Below, piece by piece: positions 9,552-63,515 of a stretch of DNA of 64,000 nucleotides. A program made the position numbers and the translations under genes. Source of the DNA: Antedon mediterranea. Taxonomy: Eukaryota > Echinodermata > Crinoidea > Comatulida > Antedonidae. The stretch is from positions 3,263,001 to 3,327,000 of the forward strand of contig NC_092680.1 of the NCBI RefSeq assembly GCF_964355755.1, given 5' to 3'. The notes beneath the pieces were generated by a model. It worked only from the letters and a program-made list of their open reading frames with translations, did not search any database and had not been told where the DNA came from. Each line of letters begins with the position of its first letter. Positions within the stretch are counted from its first letter, which is position 1.

Positions 9552-12500
9552 ATGCCGTATAAGTATTTAGGTAAACATCATCTTGATGGGTTTGACAAAT
9601 ACAAAGTAAGTAACGATATATTGACAGCTCTTACTAGTAACTAAACTAGGCTAGGCTAGGCCTGACCCGACCTTCTGAGCTAGGTATGTTGCTAGGCCTA
9701 GGCTAGGTTTAGCCTAGTAATATGTAGTAAGAGGCCCTCTAGATAGCAGCTATGCTATCAGAAGAGAAGCCTAGCTAGTAGTAGTAGCCCATTTCTCCCG
9801 GCTATCATGACAATGTGTGAATTAATCATGCCATTAATGTTGTGTGAATTAATCATGCCATTAATGTTGTGTTATTATCATAATTAAAAAAACAGGTTTC
9901 ATAATTAATAATATTTTAAACAGTTGTTACTATGCCAGGCTATATATGAAATTAAATAATTAAAATTAAAATATATTAATTTAAATTCATTCATAAAATC
10001 ACAAATTGTAGTAGTACTAGTAGCAAGGGTATACTATACATTTTGAGTAAACATCCAACTAAAGAAAGTTTTTTCTGAAAGAAGCAGAAACGATATAAAA
10101 TTTTAAAAATTCATTGGCCTAATATTAATAAGATTATTAACAATAATTAATATTTTTCAATTGTTCTTATTTCTTCCAGTACAATGCTGTTGACACATCA
10201 CCTCTTTCAAACTATGTCATGCACCCCCTTTGGGATAAATGCATCAAGGTAAGTTACTAGGCCTATAGATGATAATAATTTTGCAACTGTCAATTGGTTT
10301 TGTAATCTGATTTAATACACTTATATTATTATGTTGGTGGTATTATACTAAGCCTTCTGTGTGAGGCAAAACAGGGTGTGGAGCTTGAGCTAATAATATC
10401 GGATTATTCACTGGTTGACAGCAGCCATATCATACCACACCAAATATTTCCTGATAATGATAATACAAGCGTAATAATGGAGAAACAGGAATTGTACATG
10501 TATTTTTTTAATATTCCGCAATTATTAATTTTTACAGTATATACTGTAGCTTTTATACAAAATAAATCTGTTTCTGTTTGTGGAAATGAATGAATATAGA
10601 ATGAATATTCTTTAGACTAAAAATGAATTACCAAGTAAATTGAATGAATAATTATAGCATTAATAGAATCTGTTTTCAAAAGTAATTTAAAGACATGTTT
10701 AACAATTTTCTTAAGCTCTGTCTTCGCTATCAATCAAACTTTATGTGACAAAAAATGGGATGTGGCCATATATTGACATGATGATGTCACATTACTACCA
10801 TATTTGGACACATCACACTTTTTTTCTCAAACTAGTTTGATAGTGTAGACAGAGCTTTACCTGCCCTCAATTTCACACGTCAGTTTTTTCATCTTAATCC
10901 TTGGTTCCCACTGAAGAAATACATAATAAAATAAAACACCATTCATGAAATAGGTATATGATCTTGTGATAGATTAGAACAGTATGCGAGTTTTGCAGGC
11001 AGATCCCTATTCACGTCAATAGACTAAAATACTGTAGAAACTAGGCTCAACATTCACCTGTATGCAAATTCAGTTCCACTCCAACACAACTTCCCTACCT
11101 CACAATCAGATACACAAATTCACTAATTGCTAGAATAGAATTTTTCAAATGTTTTTATCAACAGATATTTCCAAAATGGTTGGCTCCAAACTTGATGACC
11201 TTCTGTGGCTTTCTTCTTCTGGTTTTTAATTTTTTACTCCTTTCATATTTTGACTGGGATTTCTATGGCAGCAGTAGGCTACATCCAGCTTATCCTATTG
11301 TACCAACATACGTATGGATTACTTGTGGTGTCTGTCAGTTTGTGGCTCACCAACTTGGTAAGTTTAATGTTTTGTTCAGCAAAATCATATTTGTGAAGTA
11401 ATAAGTTACTACTGTAACTCCTTTTTACAAAAAGATGCACTTGGTTCTTTAAAGGCAAATTTACACAGATGAGCAGTAACGGTAATGAAAATATAGAATC
11501 TATGTTATTCCTTATGACCACACACTGCAGAGTGGACGGGCGGTTTCTACATGGGTCAAGCTACATGGTTTTCCACTTACCGTCACCGTTCTTTTCTTTA
11601 ATAAATCGGCCTATAAGTGCACACAGATGTATGCTGTCCTTTTCCAAGAAGATTTGTTCTACCGACGACCATAACTACATGGCCAAAGAGTGCCATGAAC
11701 CTGTGCTGATACAGTCAACTCTCCCAATACCGGACACCTTTGGGCTGGCCTAATATGTCAGATTTTCTGGAATTCTGGTATTCTGAATTATGTTTTTAAT
11801 GGTAAAAATGAATTTGGACCTCAAGAAAATTCTGGGAGAGTTTGCGGTTTGCAGAGAGTCCAGTATTGGGAGAGTTGACTGTATTAGGCCGCTTGACTTG
11901 ATTATCACAGAAAGTAACTTACTAAAAAGGGTTTATTGTTAATAAGTTGAAGTCATTAAAAAAATGTTTTCTAATTTTGATATGAATTATTTCTCTTTAA
12001 ATTTAGATGGTATGGATGGTAAGCAAGCAAGAAGAACCAAATCCAGCACCCCACTAGGAGAGTTGTTTGACCATGGCATTGACAGTTGGGTAGCAGCGTT
12101 TATGCCAATCGAACTCTACTCGTGTTTTAGTCGATGCGAAGAGGATTATGGAAAGAATGTATTCATCCTGTTTTGGATCTTGTGGAATATTGTCGGAGTG
12201 TTCACGATATCTCACTGGGAGAAGTATAATACAGGCGTTCTGTTCCTTCCATGGGGATATGATATAAGTCAGCTTGTAAGTAATATGATATAAAATATTG
12301 TATCCAGTGTATCTGGCGCATCTGGCGTGAGGCTCATACTTTTTTACCCAAACACAAGCTCTGACGGCACACATCTCTCAATTTTTAAACCTTTTTACTT
12401 AAATCGTCAAAATTCTTTTGTTTATCATGCTTAGATTCATTGATCCTAGGCTGGAACATTTCTGCCCACTTTTCACAAAATTGTTAAATTCTCAAGCCAG

Positions 12501-15500
12501 CTGTAACCACAAACCTGACATGATCCTGTCAATTATAATTACTGTGTCTATATATAAATTTACGTAAGGGCAAAATTCGGTAAATCGCGCCTTACTTTTA
12601 GAATTTTTACTCGATGGTATGTAAAGTTGGTTAGTACTTTCGGTACTGATTTTAACCACCTGATGTAACCCTGTTTACTAATTAAATTAAGTTAGATAAT
12701 TAGTTATTGACGATTAAAACGAATTTAGGTTCAACGATTTGCCCCAGATAGGGGTGTTTTCCGATCGTGGTATACACTGTCTAATGGATGTCCATCTTGA
12801 AAAATACCCGCCACAAAAATGCGAGGAGGCTTCGCATTTTCCTATCTCCTCCTACGATAATTGTTTTTAATAGCTGAAAACCGGTTGAACAGCTCGAGTA
12901 CTGTATCATAATGTTGAAGACCGGCCGATTTTCTTAAAAAAATACTATTTTGATAGATTTAATATACGTTTATACAAATGTATTGATTTGCGATGAATGG
13001 AACATTCCAATCTCTGTGTCGTTCCACAAGTGTCTATTCCCTCAGGCGTCGTAAAGGAAAGTACTGTATACTCATAACAGAAATTCGATCCATTTTTTTT
13101 TTCAATCTGTGCTGCAGAGGTTGGATATAATTTTTTTTAAACGGATAATGAGCTAGCGTTTTCAGTCGCCGTAATTTAATATTTATTACCGATTAAATCG
13201 AATTTATGATTTTCCCCGAATAGAGGTGGTTTTCACAAATTGTTTAACTTTATATATAAACATACGTAGTGATGTATCGTTACATGTGCTGTACTATTTC
13301 AATCGACTACGACGGTGATAGTTTCAACAAAGTATTACATCGCAATGTTTTACTGTGTTTAGTGGTATATTATTTGTAAAACATGTTAATTAATATTTTG
13401 TTACAAAATAAAGAATATATTTAAAAATTGTTCCTCTTTGCACCCATCCTCTTCTCCATCTCTCAACCATAATGTTACATACAAAACACAAATTAAGTTT
13501 GTTTAAATTTGACTTAAACAATAATGGTCTCATTTTGTGACAACTTTCTCTTTCGGAAGTAATTCCCAGTGTGCTAATTTTAGTTGAGTACATAAATCAC
13601 AGTGTCTATTTAATCGTTCCTGTAAACGACATATATTATTGTCCTGCATTATTGTACATTTGATGAATCGCCAGTTTTTTAACGCTGAAATTACTGTGTA
13701 TTCGAGAACCATCTGTGGGCACGACCTAGATGGTACGCGAGCGTACCATCTAGTTATATTAAATTAACAAAAATACATCCATTGAAAATAAAATTATACT
13801 AAGTACTGTCAACTTTTGTAACACGAACAAACCTAGTATATCCGGGCCCAACATCATCTCCTACTTGTTCATTACCTTGCAATGTAATTTCTTTATACAT
13901 AATTATAAATAATTTACCATAAATAACTAATGTAATCAAACATGATGTAGTCTTATACCCTTTTCACATCTGCATAGATTTGTACCAAGCATACGCGAAC
14001 CTTGAGAAATCTCTGATGGAAAGTGTAGTTGCGCGCTATTTGATTATTATTATTGGTCCATTTAATACCCGTGCAATACACGCGCGCAGTAAGAACTCGG
14101 AACAAAAACAGGTGTGAGGAGATGTTCTACAAAATAGTATTCACACTATGCAAACCTGGTTACAAGTCGTTACATTTTGCAAATGTGAAAAGGGTTTTAA
14201 CCAACTATTTGCTATTGTTCTTTTTTGTTTTACAGAGTCTAGCAGCTGTGTATCTTGCAACGGGTATATTTGGTTATGAATTTTGGAAAATTACTGTTTA
14301 TGGATTCGAATGGAGGGTGTTATTAGTTCCTCTTGTATTTTGTAAGTTAATTAAATGTTTAATTGGGTTAGTATCAGATTAATACGTTACTAAGAACAAT
14401 GTACAGTACTAAGATAGATTGACTTACTTAAGATGTTTATTGTAGAATCTTTTGTGTGTGTGTGTGTGTTACCGCTGCGTCGGTTTTGTTTTTGTTTTTT
14501 ATACCATGAAATATGAAGGGTAAAAAAAAAAATTAATACGTTTCTCCACTCATCCATTCTATGTTACTGCAGTAACTGCAGTATTAATGATCCCTAAAAA
14601 TATTAATAATTATATTGATTATTATATTATTTATTATTGTGTATTTATAGTTGGTTCAGCTGGTCTTTCCATACCACAAAGCCTTTACAATATATACAGG
14701 TAATTTACTTTTTAAATTATTACATTTGAAACTGTCCTTTTAATTACGTTTATGAAAGTTAATTTCTATCCAGGTAGAATATAAGATTTGAATGATCAAC
14801 TGGACTTACTTTATTAAAACATCGACATACTTATAGTTGAAAAATAAAAGTTTAAGTTTGTCAGAACAGGTTTTTTTTTTTAAGATTAATTTAGTATATT
14901 AGACTTTTTAGCATAATATACCATTTTATATATAAATCCAAAGGCAAATTACTGAAAAAATGGCAATTCAGTGGCTGGATCTCAATGGAGATACAAAATA
15001 AAAGCTAAATCTAAACGAGAGGTAAAACAGCCAGAAAAGTTAGCACAGCTTTCGGGCAACACTAGCCCTTCATCATTTTATATATATATATATATATACC
15101 ATTTTTTTAAATATATACCATCGTTTTGGTATGTTCGACTGTAATACATTATTTAGAATTATATACACAAATAGAGAACAAATAATATAATGAATATTAC
15201 TATTAATTTTTTTTCTTTCTTTAGAGGATACAAGGATGGTACTGGTAAAATGAGGTCTTTTAACAGAGCAATGGAGCCTCTATATCCACTATTTGCCCTG
15301 TTTGCATTGTCAACTATCTGGGTTTACTTTTCACCAACTGGTATTTTAGAACTTCAACCAAGAATATTTTGTCTAGCTATTGGTACCATTAATTCAAATA
15401 TTGCTGTAAGTATTATGACAGTTATTATTATTATTTAAAAAAAAGCTACTCAAAGAAACTTGTGTCTTCTGCTTTCACTGTTTCAGATGACTTGTGGTTT

Positions 15501-16526
15501 CATAGAGTTAAGCTCTGTCTACACTATCAAACTAGTTTGTCAAAAAAAGTGTGATGTGTCCACATCAGATAGTGATATTCCCAAATATGGTAGTGACATC
15601 ATGACAGCATGTCTATATATGGGCACATCACATTTTTTTGTCATATCACTACCATATTTAGGCACATCACACTTTTGTTGTCAAACTAGTTTGATAATGT
15701 AGACAGAGCTTTACATTTGAATACTAGTCTGAGTAGCATATAAATAAATCTAAATATTGCAATTTGTACTTCTCCTATTTATTTATGTTAAAATACTGTA
15801 GGGAAGAATGAAAGAAAAATATGTATATGTATCATTTCTTTTTTTAGTGTCGTTTGATTATCAGTCAGATGTCGGATACGCTTTGTAATTCGTTTAATCA
15901 ACTCCTCATTCCACTAGCCCTGTGTGTTGTTTCTGCGTTTGTATTCCATGATAGTACAATAGAGGTATATCTGTTGTACTCTTTGTGTACCATTAGCATT
16001 GTTGCGCATGTTCACTACGCTAGTTGTGTGGTAAGTATATTTGAATTTTTGTATACAAACATAGTATATTGTTATTAAATATCCTCAAAAATTGAGGAAA
16101 TTTCGATTAAGCCCTCTGCCATGCCACAGTGTAGCATCTACTATGATAAACACACCGGAAGATATTCCCATACTTTTTTATTAGTTCTTTACCATGTGCA
16201 TTGTATGTATACAGGACCAACAGCTTTATTTCTCATCTGAAAGTTGAGCTAATATGAGTATAGTATATGGCACAGAAAGGACGGTCTTGAACCCATGCCT
16301 CTTATATTCAAACTGATGTCCCTTTCCATTGTGCCATATTAATCTCGATATGAAGTCCGCTATCAGTTATAAATGGTTCCCTTCAAGTTTAAAAAATTGA
16401 TAGCTTTATTCCTTAATTCAATTAAAATGAATTACTTGTTTTCTGTTTTTACAGGTATACCAACTGGCTGACCACTTTAATATTCATATTTTTTCACTTA
16501 AGAAAAAGAAAGAACGAAAAAGGTAG
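9552..16526 (+). CDS. SELENOI: Ethanolamine phosphotransferase 1 (EPT1/SELENOI), no Sec tail
   Basis: An integral membrane enzyme transferring phosphoethanolamine from CDP-ethanolamine to diacylglycerol or alkylacylglycerol in the Kennedy pathway. Nine exons keep frame: 9552-9605, 10180-10248, 11165-11357, 12007-12275, 14236-14341, 14651-14699, 15225-15405, 15848-16030, 16455-16526; 390 residues. The N-terminus [16 protein letters not shown] and [13 protein letters not shown], and the later [20 protein letters not shown], match vertebrate SELENOI. The CDP-alcohol phosphotransferase motif DG-x2-AR-x8-G-x3-D-x3-D is intact (DGKQARR ... GELFDHGID). Hydrophobic segments alternate through the chain. 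The protein ends [13 protein letters not shown] at a TAG, where vertebrate SELENOI continues into a short tail containing selenocysteine. An exon joined through the weak GTAGAC donor cannot be excluded, but I found no in-frame UGA exon with a matching tail. Confidence 0.9.
10711..10860. mobile_element. MITE family A copy 4
   Basis: In EPT1 intron 2. Ends TTAAGCTCTGTCTTCGCTATC and GTTTGATAGTGTAGACAGAG; in the opposite orientation to copy 2. Confidence 0.85.
11452..11613. mobile_element. MITE family B copy 1
   Basis: Family B has ends like GGCCAATTTACACAGACAAGC and an inner ACGGTAA...AATATAGAATCTATG...ATTCCTTATGACCA block. This copy runs from AAAGGCAAATTTACACAGATGAG to TTAATAAATCGGCCT in EPT1 intron 3. 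Confidence 0.7.
11710..11883. mobile_element. Tc1/mariner-type MITE with TA flanks
   Basis: Inverted ends TACAGTCAACTCTCCCAATAC and GTATTGGGAGAGTTGACTGTA, 174 bp, bounded by TA on both sides, the target-site duplication expected of Tc1/mariner. No open frame inside. In EPT1 intron 3. Confidence 0.8.
13726..13753. repeat. 28-bp palindrome, 13-base arms
   Basis: CTAGATGGTACGC, then GA, then GCGTACCATCTAG: perfect arms with a two-base centre, inside the long EPT1 intron 4 (12276-14235). Confidence 0.9.
15509..15713. mobile_element. MITE family A copy 5
   Basis: A long copy (205 bp) in EPT1 intron 7 with clear ends TTAAGCTCTGTCTACACTATC and GATAATGTAGACAGAGCTTTA. Both halves end in ACTAGTTTGA, so it resembles a fusion of two left halves. 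Confidence 0.85.
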
Positions 16527-58344: not shown

Positions 58345-58517
58345 AACATTTAGATTGTCTAGAGCACTAAACAAAAGTATTGACAATCAATCAATCAATC
58401 AATTTTTTACAACTATTAAGCCGAGACACTATTAATATTTGTTTTGATAGAGTTTAGCTTTATGGCATAAACTCCTGTCTGATTAGAAATAACATTTTAT
58501 TCAATAGTGTGCTGTAT

Positions 58518-58641
58518 GAAGCTCTGTCTACACTATCAAACTAGTTTGACAAAAAAAGTGTGATGTACCCAAATATGGTAGTGATATGACATCATCATGT
58601 CATTGTGGGCACAATTTTGATAGTGTAGACAGAGCTTTACC
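58518..58641. mobile_element. MITE family A copy 18
   Basis: GAAGCTCTGTCTACACTATC to GATAGTGTAGACAGAGCTTTA, with part of the right arm deleted. Between UTP23 and the adhesion GPCR. Confidence 0.8.
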
Positions 58642-59002
58642 TCAGTGTCTTCAACTTCAAACAAGTAATATTTTTAATCAAATGGCAAATCTAACACAAT
58701 AATATCACATAACTCATAAAATTTACAAAAGTGTTGATAAAAGTTTAAATCGCCCAGCAAAAGAATAATTTGAGATCTTAAATAAAATGTTCAAGAGTGA
58801 AATAGATATTTTTGTTTTTGTACAAAGCCGAGTTACACAGTACATTGTTTTATGCAGTATGGTAAACAACTTCAGGTAAAATAAGTCTGGAGGTCAGTCT
58901 GAAAGAATAACGATATAATTTATAATTAATAAATATAATATTTCGAGAAGTTGGTGAATATTTTGCACATTTTAATGAATTAATGCCGTTTTGAACTAAA
59001 TA

Positions 59003-61627
59003 TCAATATATTCTGTTTACCCTCGTAATTGTAGTGGTGGTTTTTCTCGACGATATCTGGTTGTTAAAACATTGAAAGTGTTTCCTGAAGGCATATCGAA
59101 CCTGAAAATAAATCAAATGTTTTAAACTAACGTATCGATTAATTCCTAGTTCATTTACACCGGAAAGCAAGTGGGGCTATTGGCAATAATTATACTATGC
59201 CTAAACGTTAATGATACTTGGGAAACTTCTGTGTGATTGAGTGATTGTACTCTAGGCCTACAATAAGAAGATGAATCCTGGCATTTGCTGGACGCTGTCT
59301 TTGCAAATAAAGAATAAAGCATTGCAGATGTTCTGATGTGGCAGCCAAAACATGGGCTTGTACTGGAGACGGATAGTGGTATGCAGAGAGAGGAACAATG
59401 GCAGATAGGAAGTATAGAGAAATATAGTCATATAAGTTCGGGTATGTCCCGGAAAAATTATAAGTAAGGCCTACAATTATAATGAAGGCCTACCTCTCGG
59501 CTTAGGGAAAACTGTGAGATCCAGATCCACAAACCCTGAAATGCAGCAGAAACTATGAAGATGAATTGAGTATACATTGAATCATCAAGAATGACGAAGA
59601 AGCCCGTCACCCACGGCAATCCAACCACTGGGGCTAACAACAACACCCTGTATGACATTGATCTACAACAATGAAGATAGCGATAATTAATAATGATGCA
59701 TCTTATAAAAATTAGGCGTAAAAGAGACAAATGCCTTCTGAACTATCAAACTAGTTTTACAAAAAAAGTATGATATACCCAAATATGCACAAATATGGTA
59801 GTGATATGACATCATCATGTCCATTATTATATGGGCACATCACATTTGTTGTCACATAAAGTTTGATAGTATAGACAAAGCTTTACCTTAGTCTCTTCAA
59901 CTTCAGATGTTCATCGTGTTCGCTGGTAGGCATTGATGTTGATTTCTTATGTACTTCATAAAATACAACGATTAATTGAACTGATACAGTCTGGAGAATA
60001 CAATTGAGCAATATTATTGAACTAAATAATTAAATATCCGGAAAAGGTTCAGCTTAGTCGTGAAAAGAATCCAGTTTATCACAATATATTACACTTGATG
60101 TTTTTGCAATACTGCACATTTTTTTGTATTCAATATTACGGTACTATTTGTGGATGTCATACTATTTTATTTCTATTTATTCAATTGAAACCAACAGCGA
60201 TAAAAACAGCCACTGCAGTTTTGATGAACATAAAGCAAACATAGAAACATTCACACCACAGCAGATGCTGTGTTCAATATAGACCTATCAATTTGAGAAT
60301 ATTACCAGAATTGTTGAAGCAACTGGTACAATGAACGTCATGATCACTCGATTACTTGTATTCAACCAGCAACTGAAATGACAAAGATTCTAAAATTTAT
60401 ACATCAATTCTCTTATAAAAAGTAATTTGATAGGAAGTTGTTTCCTATAAATACTACCGGTTCTAGCAAAGTTTCGAAGCCAGTCAACATTAGCTGCATG
60501 TTTCTGTTTATTCCCGATGTTTTGGAAGGAAGCCCTCTAAAAATGTTAATAGGTGTATCGTTTTAATATACTATACTTAGTAAATAACCTTACCTGGATG
60601 ATGCGTATTCCTCTCTCGTAACACCAACTACCGTTGCTACACCTACGAGAGGCAGCATCCAACCAATCACTCGAAAGTATTTAAAACGTTTCTGGTGATC
60701 TGCAAACGGATGTCTGATCTTACAGTACAGTTCTGTACACCAGAGAATCATCCACAAGAAGGATACGAGCAGACTGTAATGAAGGCTTGCAGCTACAATA
60801 ATGCAAACAACCTAAAATAGATCTAAAAAGTCTGTTTTACACTATCAGGAAAAACTCAACATTGTGGTATCTCATGGACTCTTCAATATGTCTATGTAGA
60901 CCTTGTAGAATTTCCAGTATCGCGAGCGGATTAATATTCTCACTATCGAATGTAGCCTATTTATACACATTTATGCGATTGCGCAGATATTTTGGCTTCT
61001 GGGAGCTTAAACACTGATATCATCTATAATGTGCCAAGCTAACTTCAATATCCAACATTTCACATCGTTTTAGAACAATAAGTTAAATCACTTAATTACA
61101 GATAGGACATCTTCATCATGGGACCACAAATTTGAATATGCAAATAAGGAAACATGATTTCCTTTGAGTCGTAAATCTACACAATCCAAATTAATTTTGC
61201 AATTAAAAAAAAAATTACTTACACGGTGTTTAATGTTCAGTGTCAGACATGTGAATGATGTGTTTACGCAGAGAAGAGAAATCACAAGATGCCGCAAAAT
61301 AACAAAACGTTCATTCTTACGCAATTCTCTATAAATACAATTGCAATAGTTTGACCGTGGTTACTTGTATTATATTTACATACACAGCGTTTAGTCTAAC
61401 GCAGGGTATTATTTATGATTGGTTCCCACTAGAGACGTAACACAACGACGTAATGCAACGTAAGGGATTTGACCAATAACAAGCGATGGATTTATTCGAC
61501 TGTCGCTTGTCAAGTCATTTGCGTTGCGTTTACGTCCTTGCGTTGCGTCCTAGTGAGAACCAAGCTTAAGTTAGACGCCACGGAGATAAGTCCAGTGACC
61601 ACTTGTTGTTGAAATCAATCAAAAGAG

Positions 61628-61671
<44 letters not shown>

Positions 61672-63515
61672 GCCTATACTTTATTGCGCTTCATTAGAGA
61701 GGACTGCAAAGCAATTTACAAACCTCAGCATGAGCAAATAGTTTCTCTAGACACGACCTAACTTCTGCAAATTAGTTTTATGAATTTTGCCGAAGTTTAT
61801 CAACTGGTATCTAATACTATGTTTTCTTGCCAAACTCAAGGGTTTGCTCGAGTGACAAACTAAACGTTACTTTAAAGATATATTGTCCCTCAAAACATGA
61901 AAAATGAAGATTAATAAATCGACTTTAAATAGGCGATTTTGCTGTTTTAATAAAGTTATTTACTTTGTAATAAAAAAATAAAAAATTACAAGTTTACTTT
62001 AAAGACAAAATAAACGGTTAATTATAACCAACATTTATTGTCTGACAGACAATTTAAGTATTTTGCTTTAAATTACATTTTTTTCAGGTAAATAATTTTT
62101 GTTCGATCCAGTTTTTGGTCAAAGTGAATAACTAATATTTGACATTAAAATGGCATATTAAAAAAATTGAAAAAAAAAATGTTTGTTAAAGGGACAAGAT
62201 ATATGTAAGCTCTTAAGTTATTAAAAGTGATGTAAAAGAACAAACTCACGGTATCATGTATATAATGATTATTATTGAAACTAGAAATATGGTTGAAACT
62301 GAAATACCGATCAACGTCAGTACGCTTGTCATCAGTTCCTTCACTTCGTCCAGTACCTAAAAACGTACAGTCAATTTATTATCAGAAATAATTTACGAAG
62401 ATGCAAGAACATACTATGCCGTTAACGTTGTAGTTTTAGTTTATGTATAATTAGAACAGCCAAATCGAATCAAATCGACAATTTAGAAGATAAAAGTAGG
62501 TCACAGGATAAAATGAAGATGTTACGGAAAGAATTCATGATAAATATGGAGAACATTTAGGAATGTATTGTCAAAGCTACTAATACTTAAAACCCAAACC
62601 GAAGACAATTTAGAAGATTAAAGTATGTGTGGGATAAAAATGAAGATTTTACGGAAGCAAAGAATTCATGATATAAAATGTAGGCATGTATTGTGAAAGT
62701 TACTTAAACGTGCGCAAGGACACAAGCGCACCACAGGAAATTTGAGCAAACCGCTTGCGTTGCACCTAAGTCGCTACACTACGTACAAGTGGGAACAAAA
62801 ACAAATTAGTTATTGTAGGCACTTTGATATTTAAAGTCATGCAAATTACTGTGGTTAATCAAGTTTGCTTTCAGAAACGAATACCTCACTGCCACTGCTC
62901 TCTACTTGCATAAGAATCGCAAAAGAAGTCAAATGGTTGCACACACACGTGACACTTGTCGCTTGGTTGTTATCCGTTTGAATTGAACAGCCTTCTGTTG
63001 ACCAAAATCTTACAAAGAAACAATAATAATTTCATAGTAATGTGTTTTTTGTTTATTTATGTGATACTATGAGTAGACCAATCCCTCATTGATTGAACTT
63101 ACGGTATATCTGATGTTGTTCCATCCAAAAAACAGCACGTTAGCTTTCGATTTTCTTGAATATTGTTTGCATGCTAAAAGTAAAACATATTATACATCAT
63201 TAGGCCTATACTCACCATAACAATATTGTTACTAAATTATTGGACAACAGTTTAAATAATAATAATACAGGTAAATCATTTTTTTGTTTATTAACTATAT
63301 AGGCCTACACATGATTAAAAATATTGAACCTCCAAAAGATTTAAGTAGGAGGGGTCCGGACAAATGTTAATAAATCATTTTTTTCGGGGGACAATGCCTG
63401 ATGACTTACTGGCGGCAATGTTACGTTGACGTTCACATCCGTTACTTCATCCAAATTTGCATCATATACATTTATAGATATGATATCGCTGATTAGTGTC
63501 ATCGGAATGCCAGAT
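59003..63515 (-). CDS. Adhesion G protein-coupled receptor, 3' part
   Basis: A cell-surface receptor with autoproteolytic GAIN domain and seven membrane helices. Ten exons in phase: 63515-63410, 63173-63103, 63008-62885, 62356-62250, 61328-61223, 60811-60594, 60372-60306, 59990-59887, 59662-59494, 59101-59003 (stop TGA); about 389 residues. The GPS is intact: CCFLDGTTSDIPFWSTEGCS, then CVCNHLTSFAILM, with cleavage expected at HL/T. TM1 is LTLIGISVSTIFLVSI. The TM2-TM3 exon gives ILRHLVISLLC, and VVCIIVAASLHYSLLVSFLW covers TM3. ECL2 has the family CW (CWLNTSNRVIMTFIVPV). TM6-TM7 read LLAPVVGLPWVTGFFVIL and FIFIVSAAFQGLWIWI. The tail is only ~30 residues. The extracellular N-terminus lies beyond the window, so the subfamily cannot be given. 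Confidence 0.9.
59738..59886. mobile_element. MITE family A copy 19
   Basis: From AACTATCAAACTAGTTTTAC to TTTGATAGTATAGACAAAGCTTTAC. Its right edge coincides with the splice donor of the GPCR exon 59990-59887. Confidence 0.8.
61418..61566. mobile_element. MITE family D copy, complete
   Basis: TTGGTTCCCACTAGAGACGTAAC at the left and GTTGCGTCCTAGTGAGAACCAAGC at the right, with TTTGACCAATAACAAGCGA inverted inside. In a GPCR intron. Confidence 0.8.
61621..61672. repeat. (AATC)n microsatellite
   Basis: About 12 uninterrupted TCAA/AATC units in a GPCR intron, followed by GCCTATACTTTATTGCGCTTC, which may be the end of a dispersed element. Confidence 0.9.
61871..62206. mobile_element. MITE family C copy 3
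   Basis: TTTAAAGATATATTGTCCCTC to AAAGGGACAAGATATATGTAAG. More diverged than the other two copies. In a GPCR intron. Confidence 0.65.
62465..62705. repeat. Imperfect ~110-bp tandem duplication
   Basis: CAATTTAGAAGATAAAAGTA ... GGATAAAATGAAGATGTTACGGAAAGAATTCATGAT ... is repeated as CAATTTAGAAGATTAAAGTA ... GGATAAAAATGAAGATTTTACGGAAG ... Two units only, in a GPCR intron. Confidence 0.7.

Follow-up and report, generated by a model that had tools for sequence, protein, structure and literature searches.

A MITE-like element at a splice donor of an adhesion GPCR gene in Antedon mediterranea: probable insertion into an older donor

When an exon ends flush against a transposon, its splice donor may belong to the host or to the element. 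This question is raised by an adhesion GPCR gene of the crinoid Antedon mediterranea, which lies on the minus strand of the window (the whole stretch of 64,000 nucleotides that was analysed). The original prediction described exon 59990-59887 as ending in CTAAG with a MITE-like end adjoining its donor, and reading of the minus strand bears this out. Very probably an old donor was struck at its TA(A) by a MITE-like element that targets TA or TWA, and its GT was kept; the use of this donor, the order of events and the prior GTAAG are what we infer from sequence comparison.

The gene and the exon that borders the element

The features needed to follow the argument are listed below, in the direction of transcription.

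62885..63008, minus strand: exon b, encoding a GPS motif (FWSTEGCSIQTDNNQATSVTCVCNHLTSFAIL), assigned by eye
60594..60811, minus strand: exon d of the same gene, donor GTAAGG (GTAAAA in the close paralogue)
59887..59990, minus strand: exon f of the adhesion GPCR, 104 nt, end of TM5 to start of TM6, phase 2, terminal CTAAG
59663..59886, minus strand: predicted intron after exon f, 224 nt, GT...AG, of which about 140-160 nt are element; the frame continues across it
59885..59886, minus strand: obligatory donor GT; the G is host flank and the T is the first base of the duplicated target
59883..59885, minus strand: exon-proximal target-site duplication TA(A), equal to donor positions +2 to +4
59742..59882, minus strand: core of the MITE-like element, AGCTTTGTCTATACTATCAAACT...AGTTTGATAGT, delimited by alignment of 30 copies
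59725..59741, minus strand: eroded distal terminus, GTAGACAGAGCTTTA in the family and TCAGAAGGCATTTG... here; the distal duplication is unrecognisable and the end approximate
59494..59662, minus strand: exon g (TM6-TM7), RSMSYRVLLLAPVVGLPWVTGFF...

Exons d-g, when joined, give an uninterrupted product of 186 codons that matches Pfam 7tm_2 (E=2.1e-27), and since they are also collinear with a close paralogue, exon f can be taken as real. With a 7tm_2 domain and a GPS-like motif ahead of it (the latter recognised by eye), the gene is an adhesion GPCR (family B2). Exon f has an open frame, TVSVQLIVVFYEVHKKSTSMPTSEHDEHLKLKRL(R), and reads ...HLKLKRL-AG up to the donor. After its CTAAG the intron starts with GTAAAGCTTTGTC (the longer stretch is GTAAAGCTTTGTCTATACTATC), and the acceptor at 59664-59663 is separated from the element by about 60-80 nt of non-element intron. 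Comparison of exons d-g with the paralogue gives dN 0.048, dS 0.158 and dN/dS of about 0.3 with zero stops, which points to continuing constraint on the gene.

The element family and its target

The 22-mer that opens the intron occurs 17 times in the window with up to three mismatches, compared with 0 in 100 shuffles, and the element stretch finds at least dozens of copies in the genome that are 82-88% identical to it. One 22-base element end has 7,305 exact matches in the 354 Mb genome. The base preceding TAAAGC is G in 1,400 of these (19%) and A, C or T in the other 5,905; the share of G is near the 16-17.5% found before TAA/TA in window DNA. Because this base varies among about 7,300 copies, the G at donor position +1 is flanking host DNA. 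These counts contradict the claim that the family ends in exactly GTAAAG, whose TA(A) is target site. In the alignment of 30 copies, the common sequence begins with TAAAGC or TTAAGC and the bases outside it are unrelated; the element's own start is (A)AGCTCTGTC, and the TA(A) before it is the target-site duplication. The window core diverges from the consensus of the aligned copies by 5.8% (8/137).

Both flanks could be read in 66 copies. In 51 of them each side shows TAA or TTA (17 TTA/TTA, 14 TAA/TAA, 17 TAA/TTA and 3 TTA/TAA), with equal triplets in 31. Where the triplets are equal, a 3-bp TWA duplication would fit; the TAA/TTA class agrees with a 2-bp TA duplication around an element reading AAGC...GCTT. 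Under both models donor positions +1 to +3 are bases of the host or of the duplicated target, and the element contributes +5 and +6, at most +4 to +6. Among superfamilies, TA is the target of Tc1/mariner elements and TWA that of PIF/Harbinger elements. In most copies one end reads AGCTCTGTCTACACTATCAAACT and the other AGTTTGATAGTGTAGACAGAGCT, as terminal inverted repeats; the window copy has an eroded distal end. The family is short with inverted repeats, present in high copy number and flanked by a target-site duplication of 2 or 3 bp, and is MITE-like on these grounds.

The family also occurs in other arrangements. At C5:24097788-24098902 the element is repeated in tandem about every 168 bp, a MITE-derived satellite, and the end motif is found in a 42-bp-spaced array at C1:410887-412373. 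Next to the element copy at 58516-58640, 19 nt at 58641-58659 on the minus strand (TGAAGTTGAAGACACTGAG) agree at 17 of 19 positions with the final 19 nt of exon f and are aligned with the element end just as exon f is. Shuffles give 0.07 such matches per window at three or fewer mismatches, and this flank is either a chance match or a copied flank.

Paralogues, the age of the donor and the competing readings

A collinear paralogue (L054/L059) lies about 245 kb away at C11:3,074,302-3,078,409, with exons a-g in the same order. Its exon f (L059:4615-4718) ends CTAAG/GTAAGACAGG (the slash marks the junction), and no family copy stands beside the donor in that intron. The paralogue therefore has GTAAG at the position identical to that of GTAAAG in the window, and the blastn alignment of the pair breaks off at 59883, directly past GTAA. 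The original prediction named an identical donor in species without the MITE as refuting it; at the paralogue level, within the same genome, such a donor is found for GTAA. The reverse arrangement is seen beyond exon d, where the window is the empty partner:

60577..60579, minus strand: empty TAA target, 14 nt past the exon-d donor, in the context TTTAC-TAA-GTATAG

At the same place the paralogue (L059 ~3865) is filled and reads TTTAC-TAA-AGCCCTG...GACAAGGC-TAA-ACATGG, and the two form a natural empty/filled pair for the target duplication of the family.

Among the more distant adhesion-GPCR exons of the genome 17 were compared, and in every one the acceptor AG falls at the corresponding codon in phase 2. 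The donor at the matching codon is readable in 15 of these (L045 and L053 are the two loci that lack a readable preceding exon) and is GTAA in 11 and GTAT in 4. As codon and phase are shared by close and distant paralogues, the intron and its GT donor appear to be ancestral and the window insertion later. Gene conversion may have made the exon ends of the two close paralogues alike, GTAA included; against this the distant paralogues speak for the position of the intron only. Between window 59494-63515 and L059:1302-5409 the exons are 88-97% alike and the introns scarcely align, though dS is about 0.16, a contrast that may reflect either gene conversion of exons or fast turnover of introns. Insertion probably followed the gene duplication, as the divergence of the element from its consensus (5.8%) compared with dS (0.158) would indicate, on rates that are uncalibrated and with introns that scarcely align. 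Elsewhere in the window, a 33-bp unit matching L059:3582-3614 repeats every 66 bp at 1821-2249.

A course of events that accommodates these observations can be proposed. An ancestral phase-2 intron between TM5 and TM6 would have carried a normal GTAA(G) donor; the prior GTAAG of the window gene itself is suggested by comparison, its own pre-insertion sequence being unreadable at the eroded distal end. The MITE-like element would then have inserted into the TA(A) of this donor, and the target duplication would have left G-TA(A) beside the exon. The first bases of the element, (A)AG, would have completed a usable donor, changing GTAAG to GTAAAG. The donor would have survived because the duplicated target and these first bases rebuild it. 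Only positions +5 and +6 (at most +4 to +6) would have been rewritten, and the element would now occupy most of a short intron, with the exon boundary and GT remaining those of the host. Splicing at GTAAAG is likely given the continuous frame and conservation. The change from GTAAG to GTAAAG is predicted to weaken U1 pairing, with a predicted duplex of -9.5 kcal/mol for the paralogue donor and -6.8 kcal/mol for that of the window.

It could instead be supposed that the host donor was lost and that the transposon edge supplies a functional donor, GT included. The sequence from GT onwards does resemble the family end, and the genes bearing the MITE splice in silico at that GT, but the +1 base differs from copy to copy, TA(A) belongs to the duplicated target and GTAAG stands at this position in the unoccupied paralogue; this reading is very unlikely. 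The idea that the insertion landed at a donor is thus upheld, while the idea that it replaced the donor fails for the obligatory GT, which consists of a host G and a duplicated T, with a duplicated A next at +3, where the paralogue reads CTAAG/GTAAG. That the insertion broke the donor, leaving a mis-spliced gene or pseudogene with an apparent donor out of use, would agree with the weaker predicted U1 pairing. Against it stand a frame that continues over the junction, exons d-g that are free of stops with dN/dS of about 0.3, and paralogues that also have GTAA donors without G at +5, and it too is given little credence.

Introners are transposon-derived introns; those built from DNA transposons, with splice sites derived from target-site duplications, are documented (Gozashti et al. 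2022, PMC9860276), and they offer a precedent for an insertion that made both the intron and the exon boundary. The element makes up about two-thirds of the 224-nt intron and is flush with the donor, as such a gain would have it. Yet the close paralogue has an intron with identical codon position and phase, as do, judged by the acceptor, the 17 distant exons, where the element is absent; the 60-80 nt beyond the element carry an acceptor of their own; and elements at donors of two other genes, Argonaute and P450-like, are likewise trailed by ordinary intron. An intron gain of this kind is extremely improbable, and the proposal that the insertion created this exon boundary is refuted by the shared codon and phase 2.

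Other donors carrying the element, and comparison with known systems

MAG precedes GTAAAGC in 18 copies of the genome, and the upstream 300 nt were read for 16 of these 18 and for two in the window. At least four further genes carry an element end at a donor, at what look like true exon ends.

L106, C1:5.37M: Argonaute exon; Piwi E=2.9e-11, PDB argonautes E ~1e-26, and the next exon continues the protein
L107, C2:39.49M: HIBCH-like exon; ECH_2 E=2.8e-25
L108, C3:3.74M: AKAP14-like exon; E=5.6e-6, with the family match limited to the first 25 bp
L110, C7:23.96M: P450-like exon; a weak match, E=0.019 when the following exon is included

An uncharacterised open frame (L099) is one more candidate of the MAG type. 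The Argonaute junction reads ...PQQ-AG/GTAAAGC...GACAAAGCT-TAAGTCAG with the far end GCT-TAAGTCAG, and the P450-like junction reads ...AAG/GTAAAGC...GACAGAGCT-TAAGACG with the far end GCT-TAAGACG; hundreds of nucleotides of ordinary intron follow the element in both. Without the element and one TAA, the donor reads GTAAGT in Argonaute and GTAAGA in the P450-like gene, which directly supports insertion into pre-existing donors. MAG is not enriched before G copies of the element end (18/1,400 vs 61/5,905, or 1.29% vs 1.03%, Fisher p=0.39). A rough expectation for random TA insertion, which takes the genome to have about 34.5 million TA sites and assumes 100,000-150,000 introns, is about 4-6 MAG-type donor insertions against 5-6 seen, so that the frequency of donor insertions is about what random TA insertion predicts. 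As the element targets TA(A) and starts with (A)AG, its insertion into GTAAG automatically rebuilds GTAAAG. It is doubtful, and can be offered as speculation, that the family is a "donor-safe" transposon which repeatedly occupies and softens donors, thereby tuning the splicing of several genes.

At the other element ends in the window that follow a G (10860, 15714, 20070 and 58640), no donor was demonstrated. The end at 10860 (CAG/GTAAAG) is preceded by an open stretch of 59 nt, but the search for homology gave none and the end lies on the strand opposite to a phosphotransferase-like gene. That gene, CDP-alcohol phosphotransferase-like as judged by eye, has its open frames at about 11200-16000 on the plus strand.

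The proposed insertion shows a route by which a splice donor can survive being struck in its core by a transposon. It also carries a caution: an exon that abuts a transposon edge need not have transposon-derived splicing, the obligatory GT here being host DNA. With at least five genes in the same arrangement, natural pairs of paralogues or alleles could be used for gauging the effect of a change from G to A at +5 on splicing.

The element resembles ordinary intronic MITEs in being about 150 bp long and non-autonomous, with inverted repeats, thousands of copies and a duplicated target containing TA. It differs from their usual insertions in that the target is the donor itself and the duplicated bases are +2 to +4. 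Splicing of the maize Ds and dSpm elements uses sites within or close to their termini, and Ds insertions are mostly exonic, supplying alternative or cryptic donors. In maize as here, the terminus of an element contributes to a splice donor, whereas the GT of the present donor, unlike that of Ds, is host-derived and at the original boundary. A literature search for MITE ends acting as splice donors returned no direct match. Introners (PMC9860276) share with this case an inverted-repeat DNA element, a duplicated target and splice-site bases common to the duplication and the element. They create introns, whereas here the intron predates the insertion and keeps its own acceptor; with the intron present in unoccupied paralogues and the element ending short of the acceptor, membership among introners was rejected. 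On present sequence comparison, the window case is an ordinary insertion at an old donor, with splicing at that donor predicted.
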